Part shown: piece after piece, positions 4,144-60,334 of the stretch
How positions within the stretch are numbered: the stretch's first letter is position 1
Layout of the letters: the number at the start of each line of letters is the position of its first letter
Origin: Halomarina litorea
GTDB lineage: Archaea > Halobacteriota > Halobacteria > Halobacteriales > Haloarculaceae
Reading direction: 5' to 3'
NCBI RefSeq assembly: GCF_024227715.1
Contig: NZ_CP100448.1
Span: forward strand, 2,067,655-2,131,654
DNA length: 64,000 nt
Translations under genes and position numbers: made by a program
Notes under the pieces: model-generated
What the model was told of the DNA's origin: nothing
The model's database searches: none
The model's input: the letters and a program-made list of their open reading frames with translations, nothing else

Positions 4144-6111
4144 CTACTTGCCCTCGAACTCGGCGTCCTCGCCGTTCATGAACGCCGTGATGCCGGTCAT
4201 CAGGTCGTCGGTGCCCATGAGGTGGCCGAACGCCTGCGCCTCGAGGTCGAGACCGGCCTCGGTGTCCTCCCAGCCGCGGAGCATCGCGCGCTTCGTCAGC
4301 CAGCGCGAGATGGGCGGCCCACCAGCGAGGTCGGCGGCCGCCTCGTGGACTCGCTCCTCGAACTCGTCGTTCGGGACCACTTCGTTGACGACGTTGTAGT
4401 CGTACATCGTGTCCGCGTCGAACCGGTCGGCGGTGAGGACGATCTCCTTCGCGCGGCTCATCCCGACGAGACGCTGGAGTCGCTGGGTGCCGCCCCACCC
4501 CGGCAGGAGGCCGAGGCTGTGCTCGGGCAGGCCGAGTTCGGAGCGCTCGCTCGCGAGGCGCAGGTCACAGCACATCGCGAGTTCGAACCCGCCGCCGAGC
4601 GCGAAGCCGTCGATGCCCGCGAGGACGGGCAGCGGCGACTCCTCCAGTTTGCCGAACGTCTCCTGACCCTTCTTCGAGAGCTTGATGGCTTCGAGGGGGT
4701 CGGCGCTCGCGGCGAATCCGCTCACGTCAGCGCCCGCGGAGAACGCCCGGTTGCCCTTCCCCGTGATGAGGATGGCGCGCACGTCGTCGTCCTCCTCGAA
4801 GTGGTCGATGGCCTCCGAGAGTTCGTCGAGCATCTCGGGGTTGACCGTGTTCATCCGCGCCTCGCGCGCGAGGACTATCTGCCCGACCATATCACCGGGG
4901 TACTCGAGTTCGATGGTCGAGAACTCCACGTCGGCGTCGTCGCCCTGCTCGTAGAACCCGCCCTCGCCGGCGCGCTCACGGAGGTAGTCCGACACCTCGT
5001 AGCGGACGGCGTCTTTCTCCTCGCGGAGGTCGTCGAGCGTCTCGACAAGGGATTCGAGGCCGTAGTCGTCGGCCATCTTCGCGGGACCGGTCGGGTAGCC
5101 GCCGCCGAGCATGACGGCCTCGTCGATGTCCTTCGCGGGCGCGACGTCGTTGCCCACGAGGTTGCCGACCTCGTTGGCCATCACGGCGAGGAGCCGGCGT
5201 TTGACGTCCTCGCGGGTCTGGTCAGGGGGCACGTCCGCGCCGTCACCGTCCTCGTAGTCGTAGAATCCCTTCCCGGTCTTCTTGCCGAAGCGCTCCTCCT
5301 CGACCGTGCGTTCGAGGAGCGGACACGGCGCGTACGCCTCGCCCAGTACCTCGTGCATGTACTCGAGGACGTGGTAGGTCACGTCGTTGCCGACCTGGTC
5401 GCCCAGTTCGAACGCGCCCATCGGGAGGCCGATGTCGTACTTCACGGTGGAGTCGACCTCCTCCATCGTCGCGTCGTCCTCCTCGACGATCCAGCACGCC
5501 TCGTTCATCAGGGGGACGAGGATGCGGTTGACGATGAAGCCGGGCGAGTCCTTGCGGACGCGCACCGGCGTCTTGCCGAACGACTCGGCGAGCTGTTCGG
5601 TGAGGTCGAGGGTCTCCTCGGCCGTGTGCGCGCCGGTGATGACCTCGACGAGTTGCATCCGAACGGGCGGGTTGAAGAAGTGCATCCCGCAGAACTGCTC
5701 GGGGCGCTCGGTGACCTCCGAGAGTTCCGTGATGGACAGCGAGGAGGTGTTGGTCGCGATGATGGCCTCCTCGGGCGCGTACTCCTGGACGTCGCCGTAG
5801 ACGTCCTTCTTGATGTCCATCTTCTCGGGCACCGCCTCGATGATGAAGTCGACGTCGGAGACGGCCTCGCTCATCTCCACGACGGGCGTGACGCGGTCGA
5901 GCGCGGCGTCGGCCTCCTCCTCGCTGAGCTGGTCGCTCTCGGCGAGTTTCCCGAGGCTCCACTCGATCTGTTCGTAGCCGTTCTGGACGAACTCCTCGTT
6001 GATGTCGCGCAGGTTCACCTCGTAGCCGGCCATGGCGGCCACCTCGGCGATGCCGTGGCCCATGTTCCCGGCGCCGAGGATGGCGATGGTCTGGATGTCG
6101 TCGAACTCCAT
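4144..6111 (-). CDS. Fused 3-hydroxyacyl-CoA dehydrogenase / enoyl-CoA hydratase
   Basis: This bifunctional beta-oxidation enzyme of 655 residues hydrates enoyl-CoA and oxidises 3-hydroxyacyl-CoA with NAD. The dehydrogenase is N-terminal: the Rossmann motif ILGAGNMGHGIAE is near residue 10, and two 3HCDH C-terminal domains follow at about 187-380. The crotonase domain fills about 395-655, with FALGGGFELAM (oxyanion hole and first Glu) and LPEHSLGLLPG (second Glu). The frame is open 69 codons further upstream, but the start at 6111 gives the family's N-terminus. It diverges from the acyl-CoA dehydrogenase at 6234, and the 122-base gap must hold both promoters. No thiolase lies nearby. Confidence 0.95.
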   Translation of the reverse strand: MEFDDIQTIAILGAGNMGHGIAEVAAMAGYEVNLRDINEEFVQNGYEQIEWSLGKLAESDQLSEEEADAALDRVTPVVEMSEAVSDVDFIIEAVPEKMDIKKDVYGDVQEYAPEEAIIATNTSSLSITELSEVTERPEQFCGMHFFNPPVRMQLVEVITGAHTAEETLDLTEQLAESFGKTPVRVRKDSPGFIVNRILVPLMNEACWIVEEDDATMEEVDSTVKYDIGLPMGAFELGDQVGNDVTYHVLEYMHEVLGEAYAPCPLLERTVEEERFGKKTGKGFYDYEDGDGADVPPDQTREDVKRRLLAVMANEVGNLVGNDVAPAKDIDEAVMLGGGYPTGPAKMADDYGLESLVETLDDLREEKDAVRYEVSDYLRERAGEGGFYEQGDDADVEFSTIELEYPGDMVGQIVLAREARMNTVNPEMLDELSEAIDHFEEDDDVRAILITGKGNRAFSAGADVSGFAASADPLEAIKLSKKGQETFGKLEESPLPVLAGIDGFALGGGFELAMCCDLRLASERSELGLPEHSLGLLPGWGGTQRLQRLVGMSRAKEIVLTADRFDADTMYDYNVVNEVVPNDEFEERVHEAAADLAGGPPISRWLTKRAMLRGWEDTEAGLDLEAQAFGHLMGTDDLMTGITAFMNGEDAEFEGK

Positions 6112-6233
6112 GCTAACGGGTGTAGGGTCTGTCGCCCCTGTGTTGAACGTTTCCACTCGTCTGTGCGACAACTCCTTACAGGTTGTAACGAGTCGGGAAA
6201 TCGTTATGTGGGAACGTCCGTGAGGGACTCGGT

Positions 6234-7388
6234 ATGGACTTCGAACTCTCGGCCGAGCAGAAACAGATACAGGAGGAGGTCCGCCGCTTCGCGGACAACG
6301 AGATTCGCCCCGTCGCACAGGAGTACGACGTCGACGAGAAGTTCCCCCACGAGGTCCTCGAGAAGGCCGCCGAGATGGGCCTGACCGGCGCGAACATCCC
6401 GATGGAGTACGGCGGTGCGGGCTACAGCGCCCTCGAGACCGCGCTCATCGTCGAGGAGATGTTCGCCGTCGACCCCGGCATCGCCCTCTCCATTACCGCC
6501 ACCACGTTCGGGAGCGACGCCCTCCTCGAGTACGGCACCGAAGAACAAAAAGCGCAGTTCCTCGAACCCGTCGCCACCGGCGAGGCCATCATGGGCGCGG
6601 CCATCTCCGAACCCGACACCGGCAGCGACGTCTCCTCCGTCTCCACCACCGCCGAGAAGGACGGCGACGAGTGGGTCATCAACGGCAACAAGATGTGGAT
6701 CACGAACGGCACCGTCGGCGACTTCTTCGTCGCCATGTGCAAGACGGACCCCGAGGCCGAGGGTCGCTACAACGGCTTCTCGCAGATCGTCGTCGAGTCC
6801 GACCGCGACGGCTTCAAGTCGGAGAAGATCACCGGCAAACTCGGCATCCGCGCCAGCGACACCGCCGAACTCGTCTTCGACGACCTGCGCGTCCCCGAGG
6901 AGAACCTCGTCGGCACGCGCGGCATGGGCTTCCTCCAGTTGATGAACTTCTTCGACATCACGCGCACGATGGTCGCCGCACAGGGCGTCGGCATCGCCAA
7001 GGGCGCCTGTGACCGCGCGCTCGACTACGCCAAGGAGCGCGAGCAGTTCGGCAAGCCCATCGGCGACTTCCAGGCCATCCAGCACAAACTCGCGGACATC
7101 CACACCCGCACCGAGGCCGCCCGTCAGCTCACCTACAAGAGCGCGTGGTCGGTCGACCACTCCGACGAGCAACTGACGACGCTCGCCTCGATGGCCAAGG
7201 AGTTCGCCTCCCGCGTGGCCGTCGACGCCGCCAACGAGGCCGTCCAGATCCACGGCGGGGCCGGCTTCGTCAACGACTTCGACGTCGAACGCCTCTACCG
7301 CGACGCCAAGATCACGCAGATATACGAGGGCACCACGGAGATTCAGAAGAACATCATCGCCCGCGAACTGCTCGGCAAGGGCTTCTAG
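6234..7388 (+). CDS. Acyl-CoA dehydrogenase
   Basis: This FAD enzyme makes the first double bond in beta-oxidation or branched-chain acyl-CoA breakdown. Its 384 residues show the standard three-domain layout: helical N-terminus, a middle beta domain with ISEPDTGSD and WITNG, and a C-terminal helical domain with REQFGKPI and QIHGGAGF. The IYEGTTEIQKN motif near residue 365 carries the expected catalytic glutamate. Divergent transcription from the fused hydratase/dehydrogenase suggests shared lipid regulation. Electron transfer flavoprotein genes, the usual partner, are not in the window. Acyl-chain preference cannot be told. Confidence 0.95.
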   Translation: MDFELSAEQKQIQEEVRRFADNEIRPVAQEYDVDEKFPHEVLEKAAEMGLTGANIPMEYGGAGYSALETALIVEEMFAVDPGIALSITATTFGSDALLEYGTEEQKAQFLEPVATGEAIMGAAISEPDTGSDVSSVSTTAEKDGDEWVINGNKMWITNGTVGDFFVAMCKTDPEAEGRYNGFSQIVVESDRDGFKSEKITGKLGIRASDTAELVFDDLRVPEENLVGTRGMGFLQLMNFFDITRTMVAAQGVGIAKGACDRALDYAKEREQFGKPIGDFQAIQHKLADIHTRTEAARQLTYKSAWSVDHSDEQLTTLASMAKEFASRVAVDAANEAVQIHGGAGFVNDFDVERLYRDAKITQIYEGTTEIQKNIIARELLGKGF

Positions 7389-7771
7389 AGCGCACCGTTT
7401 TACGCCCCGGGTGCGCTTCGCGCACCCCTCGGCGCAAAACCCTGCACGAAAAAGGCCGGTTCCTCGCGCTTCGCGCTCGGAACCGGGGAACCACGCTCGC
7501 TCACTGCGTTCGCTCGTGCGGACTGTCGTCCCCTGCTATTCGTGGGTTCGCTTCGTCGGCAGAGTCGCTGATTCTGCCGGTAGACGGAGAGCGCCGAGAC
7601 GTCGGCTACCCCCACGGACCGTTTCGAGCACCGACTGAGCACTTCGAACGAGAACTGCCGACGGGACGGCGAGAGCGTGGCTCGGTCGTCGCGACCAGCC
7701 GTCGACGCGACGGCGGCGATGCGTCTACGGACGACGGCGGTTTTTTGTCACTCCCCGCCGAGTGTCCCGGC
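7389..7771. other. Intergenic stretch with hairpins, no gene
   Basis: These 383 bases separate the acyl-CoA dehydrogenase from the EamA transporter. The first 100 bases hold two strong inverted repeats, described separately. The remaining 285 bases are open in the transporter's frame, but the translated segment is Arg-rich and lacks a membrane-protein character, so I do not extend the transporter into it. Nothing else is recognisable. Confidence 0.5.
7397..7486. repeat. Two adjacent hairpin-forming inverted repeats
   Basis: The first palindrome (7397-7440) has a perfect 8-bp inner stem GGGTGCGC/GCGCACCC around TTC and an outer arm GTTTTACGCC/GGCGCAAAAC with one mismatch. The second (7456-7486) pairs CCGGTTCC with GGAACCGG and has an inner CGCG/CGCG around CTT. 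Both lie within 100 bases of the acyl-CoA dehydrogenase stop codon. They may end transcription or protect the mRNA 3' end; they may also be a dispersed haloarchaeal palindromic repeat. Confidence 0.6.
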
Positions 7772-54903: not shown

Positions 54904-55499
54904 CCGACGGCGAGTCGAACGCGCTCGCGGGGTGGCCCGTCGCGTTCGAGGGGGTCGTCGAGTCCGTCGTGACGACGCTCGGCCCGAACGGGCGCTGGAA
55001 CGTCGCCGCCCTCGGCTTGCACGCACCCGACGCTGACGGTCCCGCCACGGCGCGCACGTGGGGGCGCACCCGGACGTGGCGCAACTTCCGCGACCGCGGC
55101 GAGGGCTACGTCCAGTTCACGCGCGACCCGGTCGACTTCGTAGAGGCCGCGTGTTCGGTCCGCGAGGCGGACGACCCGGTGCTCCCGAGTGCCGACGCGT
55201 GGGCGCACGTCACCGTCGACTCCGTCGACTCGGGCGAGGACGGCGGGACGACGTGGGAGGAGTGGGCGCTCTCGCCGGTCGAATCGGGCATCGAGCGACG
55301 GGTCGTCCCCGTGACGAACCGGGCGCACGGGGCGGTGGTGGAAGCGACCGTCGCGGCCTCACGGCTCGACGTACCGAGGTACGACAGCGAAGAACTCCGC
55401 GAGCGCATCCGCTTTTTCGGGGAGGTCGTCGAACGGTGCGGCGGCGCGCGCCACCGCGCCGCGTGGGAGCGCTTCGAGGAACTGGTCGACTGGCGCTAG
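54900..55499 (+). CDS. DUF447-type putative flavin-binding protein
   Basis: This protein of 199 residues belongs to the DUF447 family, a split-barrel FMN-binding-like fold. WPVAFEGVVESVVTTLGPNG, WNVAALGLH, TWGRTRTWRNFRDRGEGYVQ and the C-terminal VERCGGARHRAAWERFEEL are conserved-looking blocks. Relatives in methylotrophs lie in tetrahydromethanopterin clusters, so a role in pterin or F420-type cofactor synthesis is plausible. It is last in the cofD operon, and its TAG overlaps the gvpO stop on the other strand. Confidence 0.8.
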   Translation: MTDGESNALAGWPVAFEGVVESVVTTLGPNGRWNVAALGLHAPDADGPATARTWGRTRTWRNFRDRGEGYVQFTRDPVDFVEAACSVREADDPVLPSADAWAHVTVDSVDSGEDGGTTWEEWALSPVESGIERRVVPVTNRAHGAVVEATVAASRLDVPRYDSEELRERIRFFGEVVERCGGARHRAAWERFEELVDWR

Positions 55500-56038
55500 A
55501 CGGCCTCGACGTCGGTGTCGGCCCGCCGGTAGCGGTCCAGTCGCCCGTAGCGCTGGAAGTTCCCCCCGTCGTCGAGGTACACCTCGTATCGCCCGAGGAT
55601 GTCCTCGGTGTCGGGGACCGCCGAGCGCTCGACCACCTCGACGACGGCCCGCCAGCCGTCGTCGCCGTCGGCCCCGATGGCCACGACGGCGTCGAGGGGG
55701 TGGCCGATGAGCGCCGTCGCGTTGGCGCGGACGGTGTCACGTATCTCGATGAGGCCGACGTCGCCGTCCGCGTCGCCGGACTCGTCGGTATCGGACTCGT
55801 CGGTATCGGACTCGTCGGTGTCCTCGTTCATGTCCTCACTCTCGCGCTCCTCGTCCGTGGAGCTATCGGTCCCGTCGGCGCCACCGGACTCGCTCGACTC
55901 CTCCGACCCGTCGGACTCGTCGTCGACGGTCGGGTCGTCCTCGTCGTGCTGGTGGCAGAGACCGTTCTCGCGGGCGGGACGGGAGCACCGCTCGCCGCCC
56001 TCCGTGAGCGCCCGACACTGCTCCGTGTCGTCGGCCAT
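55496..56038 (-). CDS. gvpO: Gas vesicle protein GvpO
   Basis: This protein of 180 residues is required for gas vesicle formation in Halobacterium. The conserved GvpO domain is C-terminal (about 100-175: ALIGHPLDAVVAIGADG, ILGRYEVYLDDGGNFQRY). The N-terminal 30 residues are unusual: CRALTEGGERCSRPARENGL followed by CHQH, a small Cys/His zinc-binding pattern. Between them lies an acidic linker with three DTDES units. It lies 23 bases after gvpA and should share its transcript. Confidence 0.92.
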   Translation of the reverse strand: MADDTEQCRALTEGGERCSRPARENGLCHQHDEDDPTVDDESDGSEESSESGGADGTDSSTDEERESEDMNEDTDESDTDESDTDESGDADGDVGLIEIRDTVRANATALIGHPLDAVVAIGADGDDGWRAVVEVVERSAVPDTEDILGRYEVYLDDGGNFQRYGRLDRYRRADTDVEAV

Positions 56039-56061: not shown

Positions 56062-56355
56062 TCATTGTGCCGAGTGTTCGATTTCGGCCGCCCGCGGCGG
56101 GATGGCCTGCGTGCCAGTCTCGAGGTCCTGGAGGTCCTCCAGTTCCCCGGACTGGCTCGCTTGCTCGACCTTCGCGATCTGTTCCGCGTAGTGGATGAAC
56201 GTGTCGACCGACGCCGCCACGATACGGGCCTCCACGGTCAGAATCTCGATGCCGACCACCGAGACGCGGGCCCAGATGTCGATGACGATGCCTTTGTCGA
56301 GGATGCGGTCGAGTACCTCCGCCAGACTCGCCGTCCCCGGTGTCTGCTGTACCAT
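56062..56355 (-). CDS. gvpA: Gas vesicle structural protein GvpA
   Basis: This is the main wall protein of the gas vesicle, 97 residues. The highly conserved body is present: [40 protein letters not shown] and [16 protein letters not shown]. The C-terminal tail of about 28 residues (after KVEQA; ends AAEIEHSAQ) is longer than the 8-12 residues usual in haloarchaeal GvpA. GvpA self-assembles into ribs; its tail faces outward. It is transcribed with gvpO, divergently from gvpF. The frame continues 57 codons upstream but without family similarity. Confidence 0.96.
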
Positions 56356-56524: not shown

Positions 56525-57154
56525 ATGAGCGATTCACATCTCTACACGTACGGGGTGGTCGAGGACGACGACCCCCTCGACCTCTCCGTCGACGGCGTCG
56601 AGGGGGCCGACCGTGTCTACACGGTCAGCCACGGCCCGCTGGCGGCAGTCGTCACCGACATCGGGACGATGGACCCCGAACGGACCGACGAGAACGCCCG
56701 CGCGCACGACGACGTGTTGCAGGCCGTTCTGGAGACCGGGCGGACCATCGTGCCGATGCGCTTTGGGATGACGTTCAAGAACGGGCGGGCGCTGAAGTCC
56801 GTCCTCCGCGGGGGTCGTCGGGCGTTCACGAAGTCGCTCCGCGAGATAGACGGGGCCGTCGAGATGGGCGTCAAACTCGTCGCCGACGAGGGCGCTTCCC
56901 TCGACCGCGAGGCCGTCGTCGCGGACGTCGCCGACCGCCTGCGCGCGGTCAGCGACGAGGAGTCCGAGAACGACCTCTTCAGCGACCGCCTCGTGTTCAA
57001 CCGGTCGTACCTCGTCGACCGCGCCGACCGCGAGGCGTTCGACGACGCCGTCAGCGCCATCGACGACGACTATGGCGAGGACCTCACGGTACAGTACACG
57101 GGACCGTGGGCACCGTACAACTTCGTCGACATCGAAATCGGGGCCAAGCGCTGA
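56525..57154 (+). CDS. gvpF: Gas vesicle protein GvpF
   Basis: This GvpL/F-domain protein of 209 residues is a minor protein needed for vesicle assembly. The N-terminal [13 protein letters not shown] and [17 protein letters not shown] are family-typical, as are [13 protein letters not shown] and the C-terminal [15 protein letters not shown]. GvpF is thought to help nucleate GvpA assembly. It opens the plus-strand operon, and its stop overlaps gvpG by one base (TGATG). Confidence 0.95.
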
Positions 57155-57405
57155 TGTTCATCGTTGACGACCTCCTGCTCAAACCGCTCGTCACGGTGCT
57201 CAACGTCATCCACTCGATGGCCATCGAGGAGATGTACGACACGGGCGCCATCCGGGACGAGATGAAGGAGAACCGCCTGCTGTACGAACTCGGCGAGTAC
57301 TCCGAGGAGGAGTACGAACGGCGGCGGGCGGAACTGGAGGCGCAACTCGACGTGGCCGAGCGCGCCCGCGAGCAACTCAGCGGCCGGGTGGAGGTGAAGC
57401 GATGA
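57154..57405 (+). CDS. gvpG: Gas vesicle protein GvpG
   Basis: This helical protein of 83 residues matches GvpG: FIVDDLLLKPLVTVLNVIHS at the N-terminus, a central YELGEYSEEEYERRRAELEA, and a charged end. GvpG is among the eight proteins essential for vesicle formation in Halobacterium and contacts GvpF and other minor components. Start and stop overlap its neighbours. Confidence 0.93.
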   Translation: MFIVDDLLLKPLVTVLNVIHSMAIEEMYDTGAIRDEMKENRLLYELGEYSEEEYERRRAELEAQLDVAERAREQLSGRVEVKR

Positions 57406-58304
57406 GCGACGATCCCGACGCGTCCGAGGCTGGCGACGGCGGAACGCAAGACGAGGGGACACAGGACATCGCGACGCTCGTCGAGCGCGCCGAGGGCGAC
57501 GTCCTCACCTTCCTCCGGGCGCTCGTCCTCGACGAATCGGTCGAGGAGGCCGAGACGGCGCTGGAGGACCTCCGGCAGGTCGCACTCGAGGCCGAGGAAC
57601 TGCTGGAGACGGTGAACCTCTCGGAGTTACCGGAGGCCATCAACGTCGAGGAACTACCCGACATCGTCGACGTGGAGTCGATCCCCGACGCCGTCGCCAG
57701 CGGCGACCCCACCGACGCCATCGAGTCGCGCGAACTGCTGGACGTCGTCGAACTCGGGAAGTTGTGGTCGACCGTCGACGTCCGGGAGTTCTGGCGCAAC
57801 AAAGACGAGTTCGAGACCGCCCTCGAGGAGGCGCTCGGCGAGGACATCGACGACGACGAGAGCCGCCTCTCGCGACTCCAGTCCGCCTTCGACGACGCGA
57901 TGGACGGCGCGGGCGAGGGGATGATGGACGGGGACGACGACGGTGACTTCGCGAGCATCCCCGACGACACCAACACGGAGGCCTTCCAGGCGGCCATCCA
58001 GTCGGGGCTTCGGGACGCCGTCGACGAGTTTCGGAAGGGCCTGCTGGAAACCCACGACCGCCTGAAGACGCTCCGCGAGGAGAACCAGGAGCGAACCGGA
58101 CGGGCGACCCAGCCCGATTCGCGGAACCCGACGGCGTACTCGACGCTCGCCTCGGCGTCGTCCGGCCCGAGCGTCGGTCGCGGGACGCGCTACTCGACGG
58201 TGCCCCGCGAGACGAAGTACTCCACCGCGCCGAACCGCAAGCGCATCTACGGCGACCGGTTCGAGGACGCCGACGCCCGCGAGGGGGGTGACGACGATGA
58301 GTGA
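57402..58304 (+). CDS. Gas vesicle cluster protein of unknown function (gene X)
   Basis: This acidic protein of 300 residues lies between gvpG and gvpJ, where gvpH and gvpI normally sit, but resembles neither: it has no Hsp20 domain and is not small and basic. Residues 25-70 are helical. Residues 71-98 are a short repeat of ten-residue units (VNLSELPEAI, NVEELPDIV, DVESIPDAV). Residues 105-170 are helical and acidic, and 190-232 form a further amphipathic helix. The C-terminal 60 residues switch to a basic, Ser/Tyr-rich tail with three YST triplets (AYSTLA, RYSTVP, KYSTAP). It overlaps gvpG by 4 bases and gvpJ by 8 and must be co-translated with them. I do not recognise the family. Confidence 0.9.
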   Translation: MSDDPDASEAGDGGTQDEGTQDIATLVERAEGDVLTFLRALVLDESVEEAETALEDLRQVALEAEELLETVNLSELPEAINVEELPDIVDVESIPDAVASGDPTDAIESRELLDVVELGKLWSTVDVREFWRNKDEFETALEEALGEDIDDDESRLSRLQSAFDDAMDGAGEGMMDGDDDGDFASIPDDTNTEAFQAAIQSGLRDAVDEFRKGLLETHDRLKTLREENQERTGRATQPDSRNPTAYSTLASASSGPSVGRGTRYSTVPRETKYSTAPNRKRIYGDRFEDADAREGGDDDE

Positions 58305-58863
58305 CGACGAGCCGAACCGCCCGACGCGGACGGCGGGGCCGACCCGCGAGGGCGACAGTCTGGCGGACGTCGTCGAGATGCTCCTCGACAAGGGCATCGT
58401 CATCAACGCCGACATCGCGGTGACCGTCGGCGAGACGGAACTGCTCGGCATCCACATTCGGGCGGCGCTGGCCTCCTTCGAGACGGCCGCGAAGTACGGC
58501 CTGCAGTTCCCCGACGGGACGGACATGCGCCGCGTCGAGGAGGCCTCGGGACGCTCCCAGATGCACTCCAAGGGCGGGTCGCCCATCTCGGTGCGCAGTC
58601 CGGGGACGACCGGTATCTCGCCCGCGCCGCGCGGCGGGGAGCGTCCCGGCGACGAAGACGACGGTAGCGACGAAGACGACGAGGAGACGGGGGCCTCCGA
58701 CGGTGGCGAGTCTTCGTCGCCGGAGGAGAAGGGAGAGGAGACGACCCCGAACGACGGCGAGGCAACAGAGGACCCGGACGCTGACGACGAGCGGGAGGCA
58801 CCGTCCGACGACGAGGGGGGCGAGCAGGAAGCCGAGAGCGAAAGCGGGGGCGAGGACGCGTGA
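58297..58863 (+). CDS. gvpJ: Gas vesicle protein GvpJ
   Basis: This GvpA-like minor wall protein has 188 residues. The conserved GvpJ domain is N-terminal (about 20-75): SLADVVEMLLDKGIVINADI, ETELLGIHIRAALASFETA, KYGLQFP. After residue 110 comes a very long acidic, disordered tail of about 75 residues (Glu/Asp/Ser/Gly), much longer than in Halobacterium GvpJ (about 114 residues total). The ATG at 58297 is preferred to a GTG at 58288. The stop overlaps the gvpK start. Confidence 0.92.
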   Translation: MSDDEPNRPTRTAGPTREGDSLADVVEMLLDKGIVINADIAVTVGETELLGIHIRAALASFETAAKYGLQFPDGTDMRRVEEASGRSQMHSKGGSPISVRSPGTTGISPAPRGGERPGDEDDGSDEDDEETGASDGGESSSPEEKGEETTPNDGEATEDPDADDEREAPSDDEGGEQEAESESGGEDA

Positions 58864-59216
58864 CCCATATCGACATCGACGGGGAGGACGCCGCCGACGG
58901 CCTCGTCGCCCTCGTGGTCGCCGTCGTGGAACTCCTCGTAGAGGCGATGGAGCGCGAGGCCCTCCGGCGGATGGAGTCCGGCGACCTGACCGACGAGGAG
59001 GTGGAGCGACTGGGCCAGCAGTTCGCCGCCCTCGAAGCCGAGGTAGAGCGCATGAAGGACGACCACGACGTGGGCGACCACGTCGCTGGCATCCGGGACG
59101 ACCTCGACGGCCTCGTCCGCGACGTGGTGAGCGGCCTCGAGACTCCCTTCGGTCGCCCGCCGGCCTCGGAGGCGGCACGCGAGCGCCCGGACGGGGAGGT
59201 GAGCCGTCGTGAGTGA
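58860..59216 (+). CDS. gvpK: Gas vesicle protein GvpK
   Basis: This helical protein of 118 residues is essential for vesicles in Halobacterium. The family pattern is clear: GLVALVVAVVELLVEAMERE, ALRRMESGDLTDEEVERLGQ and a C-terminal helix-rich half. The start is a GTG within GTGA, overlapping the gvpJ stop. Confidence 0.93.
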   Translation: MTHIDIDGEDAADGLVALVVAVVELLVEAMEREALRRMESGDLTDEEVERLGQQFAALEAEVERMKDDHDVGDHVAGIRDDLDGLVRDVVSGLETPFGRPPASEAARERPDGEVSRRE

Positions 59217-60036
59217 CACCGAGTCGGAGTCCGCCCCCGACATCGAGGCCGGTCGATACCTCTACTGCGTCGTCTCGCTCGACGAGGAGGAGGACCCGTC
59301 GGCGTTCGACGCCGAGGGCGTCGATTCCGTGGCCGTCCGCGTCGTCGCGTTCGCGGGTCTCGGAGCGGTGGTCCACGACACGGACGCGCTGTACGACTCC
59401 GAGGACCCCCAGCAGGTCCAGTCGTGGCTGCTCGACCACCAGTCGGTCGTGGACGCCGCCGGCGAGCGGTTCGGGACGCCGCTCCCCGTCCGGTTCGACA
59501 CGGTCCTGCGCGGCGGCGACGAGGGCGTCCGGTCGTGGCTGGAAGACCACCGCGACACCCTCGAACGCCACCTGGGCCGTTTCGCCGGGTGCTGGGAGTA
59601 CCGCATCGAGGTGCTCGTGGATCCGGAGACGCTCCGGGCGGGCCTCGCCGAGGACGACGAGCAGTTGCGCGAACTCGCCGAGAAGCGCGAACGCGTCGGC
59701 GAGGGCACGGCGTTCATGGTCGACAAGCAGTACGAGAACCGACTACGCGAGGTCAAACGGACGGCCCGCGAGGCGCGGACCTCGTCGCTCGAGTCGCGCC
59801 TCACGGACCTCGCCGACGAGGTCGAGCGCCTCGGCTCCCGGACGACGGCGCTCGGCGTCGAACGCGAGGACCGGGAGACGCAGGCCCGCCTGACGGTCCT
59901 CGCCCCCGAATCGAACGAGGCGGCCATCGGCGAGGTCCTCGACGACGTGGCGGCCGAGACGGGCGTCGAGGTCCGCTTCACCGGCCCGTGGCCGCCGTAC
60001 TCCTTCGCCCCCTCCTTCGACGATGGAACCGAGTAG
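59209..60036 (+). CDS. gvpL: Gas vesicle protein GvpL
   Basis: This second GvpL/F-domain protein has 275 residues. GRYLYCVVSLDEEEDPS at the N-terminus, LPVRFDTVLRGGDEGVRSWL in the middle, and the C-terminal FTGPWPPYSFAP mark the family. A helical insert with charged residues lies at about 145-210. GvpL is known to bind many other minor Gvp proteins in Halobacterium and may organise the assembly complex. Start GTG at 59209 overlaps gvpK; its 3' end overlaps gvpM by 14 bases. Confidence 0.94.
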   Translation: MSDTESESAPDIEAGRYLYCVVSLDEEEDPSAFDAEGVDSVAVRVVAFAGLGAVVHDTDALYDSEDPQQVQSWLLDHQSVVDAAGERFGTPLPVRFDTVLRGGDEGVRSWLEDHRDTLERHLGRFAGCWEYRIEVLVDPETLRAGLAEDDEQLRELAEKRERVGEGTAFMVDKQYENRLREVKRTAREARTSSLESRLTDLADEVERLGSRTTALGVEREDRETQARLTVLAPESNEAAIGEVLDDVAAETGVEVRFTGPWPPYSFAPSFDDGTE

Positions 60037-60334
60037 AACCGAGCAGGACGCCGTCGTGGACCTCCTCGACGTGATTCTGGAGGAGGGCGTCCTCCTTCAG
60101 GCGGACGTCGTCATCAGCGTGGCGGACATCCCGCTCGTGGGCCTGCAACTCAGGGCGGCGCTGGCCGGCCTGGAGACGATGACGGACTACGGGCTCATGA
60201 CCGACTGGGACGCCGCCCAGCGTCGACTGGCCCGCGAACGCGAGGAGTCCCCCTCCGCATCGTCGGTGGCGACGGGGGAGTTCGCGGCCGAGGAGTCGGA
60301 ACTCGACGACGGGGCTGACGGCGACTCCCGCTGA
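60023..60334 (+). CDS. gvpM: Gas vesicle protein GvpM
   Basis: This GvpA/J-like minor protein of 103 residues has the conserved core AVVDLLDVILEEGVLLQADV, VADIPLVGLQLRAALAGLET, followed by MTDYGLMTDWD. The C-terminal 30 residues are acidic. GvpM is essential in Halobacterium and aggregates alone, being kept soluble by other Gvp proteins. It closes the operon, 26 bases from the convergent CHRD gene. Confidence 0.93.
   Translation: MEPSRTEQDAVVDLLDVILEEGVLLQADVVISVADIPLVGLQLRAALAGLETMTDYGLMTDWDAAQRRLAREREESPSASSVATGEFAAEESELDDGADGDSR

Follow-up and report, generated by a model that had tools for sequence, protein, structure and literature searches.

The gene between gvpG and gvpJ in a Halomarina litorea gas vesicle cluster is very probably gvpI in a long, two-domain form

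The window, a stretch of 64,000 nucleotides of Halomarina litorea DNA, carries a gas vesicle gene cluster with the layout gvpA-gvpO / gvpF-G-X-J-K-L-M. The minus strand encodes gvpO (55496..56038; PF05800) and gvpA (56062..56355; PF00741, halo_gas_GvpA), and the plus strand encodes gvpF (56525..57154; PF06386), gvpG (57154..57405; PF05120, NF045779), gene X, gvpJ (58297..58863; NF046090), gvpK (58860..59216; PF05121), gvpL (59209..60036; NF045778), and gvpM (60023..60334; NF046091). Gene X, read here as a long form of gvpI by homology and by its slot before gvpJ, spans 57402..58304 on the plus strand, starts with ATG, and encodes 300 amino acids. It overlaps gvpG by 4 bp (ATGA, the gvpG stop being at 57403-57405) and gvpJ by 8 bp, assuming a gvpJ start at the ATG at 58297; the location and both overlaps given in an earlier note on this DNA are borne out, and the gene is a genuine member of the operon. 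That note had placed the gene in a gvpH-gvpI slot. It does occupy the gvpI place, directly 5' of gvpJ in the gvpF-M operon, but gvpH is missing from the cluster and the gene itself is best read as gvpI. Neither gvpN nor gvpC was detected in the cluster, and because gvpA and gvpF are divergent neighbors there is no space between them for gvpD and gvpE. The reading frame of the long gvpI, together with its repeats, is kept in more than 100 genomes, far beyond chance.

The encoded protein begins with an acidic helical domain (residues 20-150; 57459..57851, plus strand), which is conserved in the family, predicted by AlphaFold, and missing in short GvpI proteins. Within it lie three ten-residue repeats of the [ND]xxxLPxAxD type (residues 71-98; 57612..57695, plus strand), NLSELPEAI, NVEELPDIV, and DVESIPDAV, which are visible both in the sequence and in the family consensus DLseLPDAVD.sELPeAID.eeiPdAIa; the consensus of the N-terminal domain as a whole reads LLeTiDLseLPDAVD.sELPeAID.eeiPdAIaeGDPgdAVD...LrELWdAvDVRelW. 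Most relatives contain one to three copies of the motif [ILVWP]PxA[VIL], against 0.05 in shuffled sequences. A variable acidic linker follows (residues 151-190; 57852..57971, plus strand), recognized from its length and charge in relatives (17-91 aa, net charge -5 to -36). After the linker comes a helix of 40 residues in the AlphaFold model, then a basic tail; the GvpI-homologous region covers residues 193-296 (57978..58289, plus strand) and consists of the helix at 192-232 and the tail. The tail proper (residues 240-287; 58119..58262, plus strand) carries the boxes SRNPTAYST, STVP, YSTAP, and RIYG.RF, with columns that are almost invariant in the family and common to short GvpI. The acidic body, the repeats, and a basic tail with three YST copies had all been described in the earlier note and are all present, with charges of -31 for residues 20-150 and +7 (pI 10.9) for residues 233-287.

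Structure prediction of the protein alone, which had been proposed as a check, gave a helical N-terminal domain at pLDDT 79, with two long helices followed by short ones every ~10 residues; the domain modeled by itself reached a pTM of 0.47, and at this moderate model confidence the prediction suggests its fold. From the model came no match in the PDB at E < 0.001, either for the full protein or for the N-terminal domain (Foldseek), nor did the domain match viral models, and no Pfam family scored above cut-off against it. The profile of the domain did pick out 9e5c_0q, a 1238-residue chain (E 1.6e-20), which was rejected as a composition artefact of low-complexity TETVEATEVAEA repeats under heavy bias correction.

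The identity of the gene rests mainly on comparison with the short GvpI proteins, among them that of Halobacterium salinarum (WP_010904102.1), which likewise occupy the slot before gvpJ. A profile of 54 relatives including the window protein, aligned to a profile of 10 short GvpIs (hhalign), matched with 99.1% probability (E 4e-19), in an alignment that runs from residue 193 to residue 296 of the window protein and over columns 17-121 of the 141 in the template, or nearly all of GvpI. On these sequence grounds the C-terminal third of the product is shown to be homologous to the entire Halobacterium GvpI. A hidden Markov model built from short GvpIs alone and run against the whole genome of the window found the long gvpI as its sole match (E 2.8e-15), and the earliest pointer to gvpI had come from a tblastn search of plasmids, at an insignificant score. 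Both forms share a helix and a tail with NPxAxSTxP, STVP, and RLYG/RIYG boxes and align end to end over this region; the motifs of the window protein and of Halobacterium GvpI follow in the same order (NPTAYST/NPAAHST, STVP/STVP, RIYG/RLYG). The short proteins differ in being basic, 113-147 aa long, and devoid of the ~190-residue acidic N-terminal part. GvpI is a basic protein with a pI of ~10.8; the tail of the long form has a pI of 10.9, but the whole long protein is acidic because of its N-terminal domain. Its helix is neutral to acidic (median charge -3), unlike the strongly basic helix of the short form. The best explanation, held with high confidence, is that 57402-58304 is gvpI in a long, two-domain haloarchaeal form.

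The two forms were surveyed in 295 Halobacteria genomes, of which 122 were counted as gvp-positive by a convincing gvpG. In 112 of the 122 the window protein matched strongly, and the weak matches in the remaining 10 are short GvpIs. The other 173 genomes gave no strong match, two of them having chance-level ones, and none of the clusters examined contained both forms. In a wider sample of the phylum matches were confined to the window's own order, and a search of genome contigs with the single protein matched Halomarina rubra only. On a tree of GvpF and GvpL every short-form cluster falls on one side of a single branch (support 97). The short, laboratory-studied GvpI is therefore one clade, co-occurring with gvpC, and the minority form in the sample. 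N-terminal extensions are not new: distant gvpI homologs with extensions of more than 200 residues, Nmag_0338 of Natrialba magadii and Htur_2370 of Haloterrigena turkmenica, were noted in gvp clusters in 2012, and that report describes an extra gene in these clusters that is missing from Hbt. salinarum, as well as a Natrialba magadii cluster without gvpC, gvpD, and gvpE (PMC3403918). The long gvpI is a further case of this kind. Within open-licence full text, no earlier mention was found of its breadth, the strict alternation of the two forms, the gvpC association, or the paralogs described below.

The earlier note had presented the gene as an unrecognized component sharing nothing visible with GvpH, GvpI, GvpC, or GvpN. 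Searches of the whole protein against Pfam, NCBIfam, and PDB sequences indeed gave nothing meaningful, with no Pfam or NCBIfam match above cut-off, and copies in relatives are labeled hypothetical, as a new non-GvpI gas vesicle component might be. Authentic Halobacterium GvpI, however, matches nothing in Pfam or NCBIfam either, which is probably the reason for the hypothetical label. The GvpC, GvpN, and GvpO profiles reached only 0.1-0.4% against the family in hhalign, so that the statement holds for GvpC and GvpN, and it holds for GvpH (0.3%), but the tail motifs are held in common with GvpI. A profile match to GvpI, which that note had named as something that would refute its reading, was obtained over the whole length of GvpI, long GvpI has been in print since 2012 (PMC3403918), and the long form alternates strictly with short GvpI; a new component is thereby refuted and retains almost no probability. 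If gvpH and gvpI had been fused, or both replaced by one gene, this would account for the missing gvpH and for a gvpG followed directly by the long gvpI. Cluster gene content scored with trimmed profiles shows gvpH missing beside the gene in 12 long-form clusters, the window's included, through about four changes on the tree, and strong mutual binding of GvpH and GvpI has been reported (PMC7688916). GvpH, an Hsp20-like accessory protein (PF05455) of the neighboring slot, nevertheless has no profile similarity to long GvpI, and no PF05455 or Hsp20-like domain was matched by Pfam in the window protein. Most long-form clusters combine the same N-terminal domain with a separate gvpH. The Natrialbaceae clusters L038 and L039, related to those of Natrialba magadii and Haloterrigena turkmenica, also have gvpH and differ in this from the window cluster. 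Moreover, the window genome has a GvpH-family gene elsewhere (G000:C1:1578391-1578714, which is L127:1498-1998 on the minus strand; PF05455, 42 bits), ~550 kb from the gvp cluster and possibly a displaced gvpH. One more such genome (G289) holds its own GvpH-family gene (41 bits), while the other gvpH-less genomes give weak Hsp20-level matches or none, the same as gvp-negative genomes. The fusion was rejected on these grounds and is very improbable. In Halocatena marina (L037:4988-6642) a gvpH-like gene and a long gvpI lie at the outer edge of the cluster, after gvpO and not before gvpJ.

Replacement of GvpC, also raised in the earlier note, would give the long GvpI a place outside the GvpA ribs, its acidic N-terminal repeat domain stiffening or shaping the vesicle wherever the cluster is without gvpC. 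GvpC, the haloarchaeal shell strengthener, is acidic and repetitive like the long form, and the two have complementary distributions in the sample: gvpC is present in all nine short-form clusters whose gvpA side could be seen, and no long-form cluster has it. A search of the window genome with one Halobacterium GvpC, run without a positive control, found no GvpC-like match, and short GvpI binds GvpC in split-GFP assays (PMC9501494). The distribution thus stands in favor of the proposal, but since the short form is one clade and the tree has a single split, the association (Fisher test) is not independent evidence and may reflect one historical event. The family also has no sequence similarity to GvpC (0.4% across 5 columns), and its repeats, of ten residues with proline, are unlike those of GvpC. 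GvpC repeats are helical and longer than 10 residues. Substitution for GvpC is for these reasons considered unlikely. Equally doubtful is a broader scheme in which two-domain GvpI would be the ordinary haloarchaeal protein and the short form a truncated derivative, the LPxAxD domain would take over the shell-shaping role of GvpC in gvpC-less clusters, and the design would have been copied outside gvp clusters for other assemblies.

The identification as long gvpI allows a function to be proposed. Deletion of gvpI results in extremely long vesicles (PMC4390858), and in the H. walsbyi work GvpI is stated to be needed for ending GvpA incorporation (PMC5496347). The short form is a very basic protein with GvpH, GvpL, GvpF, and GvpC as binding partners (PMC7688916, PMC9501494), and the pull-downs have basic GvpI binding acidic Gvp proteins and multimerizing GvpJ, GvpK, and GvpM (PMC7688916). 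Limitation of length is assigned to the long form because its tail is homologous to short GvpI; the function is in this way transferred wholly from the short form, and what the N-terminal domain does is likewise an inference. The long GvpI is likely a GvpI-type adaptor limiting vesicle elongation, with a putative N-terminal interaction domain in addition. As with short GvpI, it would be an accessory factor made together with GvpF-GvpM; its basic ST-box tail would dock on acidic partners (GvpL, GvpF, GvpJ/K/M, and GvpH if present), and the docked protein may restrict growth in length. The acidic N-terminal domain would probably offer a second protein-protein interaction surface, tethering or spacing partners. 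Binding of acidic Gvp proteins by the basic tail, as the earlier note had it, is plausible in light of pull-downs carried out on the short form (PMC7688916), but charge-based binding may differ in the long form because of the altered charge of its helix. Also counting against this reading, several species with gvpC-less clusters, for example Natrialba magadii, are listed in a review as having gvp genes and no visible vesicles (PMC4390858).

These results give a name to a gene annotated as hypothetical in many haloarchaeal gas vesicle clusters, and they mark the laboratory-studied GvpI as a minority, single-clade form. What the extra domain does can now be put to the test, a question that matters for how gas vesicle length is controlled, itself poorly understood.

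Full-length relatives of the long form also occur outside gvp clusters, a further point against the gvpI reading, which shows that the two-domain architecture can exist apart from the gvp operon. A paralog clade of 12 includes, in several genomes of family f7, copies adjoining pdxS and a GHMP kinase gene. Stand-alone full-length paralogs (L086-L092 and L099; also L084, L085, L093, and L096-L098) were seen only in gvp-positive genomes of the sample, several of them downstream of pdxS and facing the GHMP kinase gene. At L094 no gvp genes were found in the stretch besides a lone gvpA (7224-7481, plus strand), and from this gvpA an orphan long-GvpI paralog (5998-6786, minus strand) diverges. More distant relatives at L130, L131, L133, and L134 (~position 6000) retain the N-terminal domain along with two ST boxes but lack RIYG; a Pfam scan of L130 and L131 gave no significant match, and all four adjoin acidic and glycine-rich genes that recur as a set.
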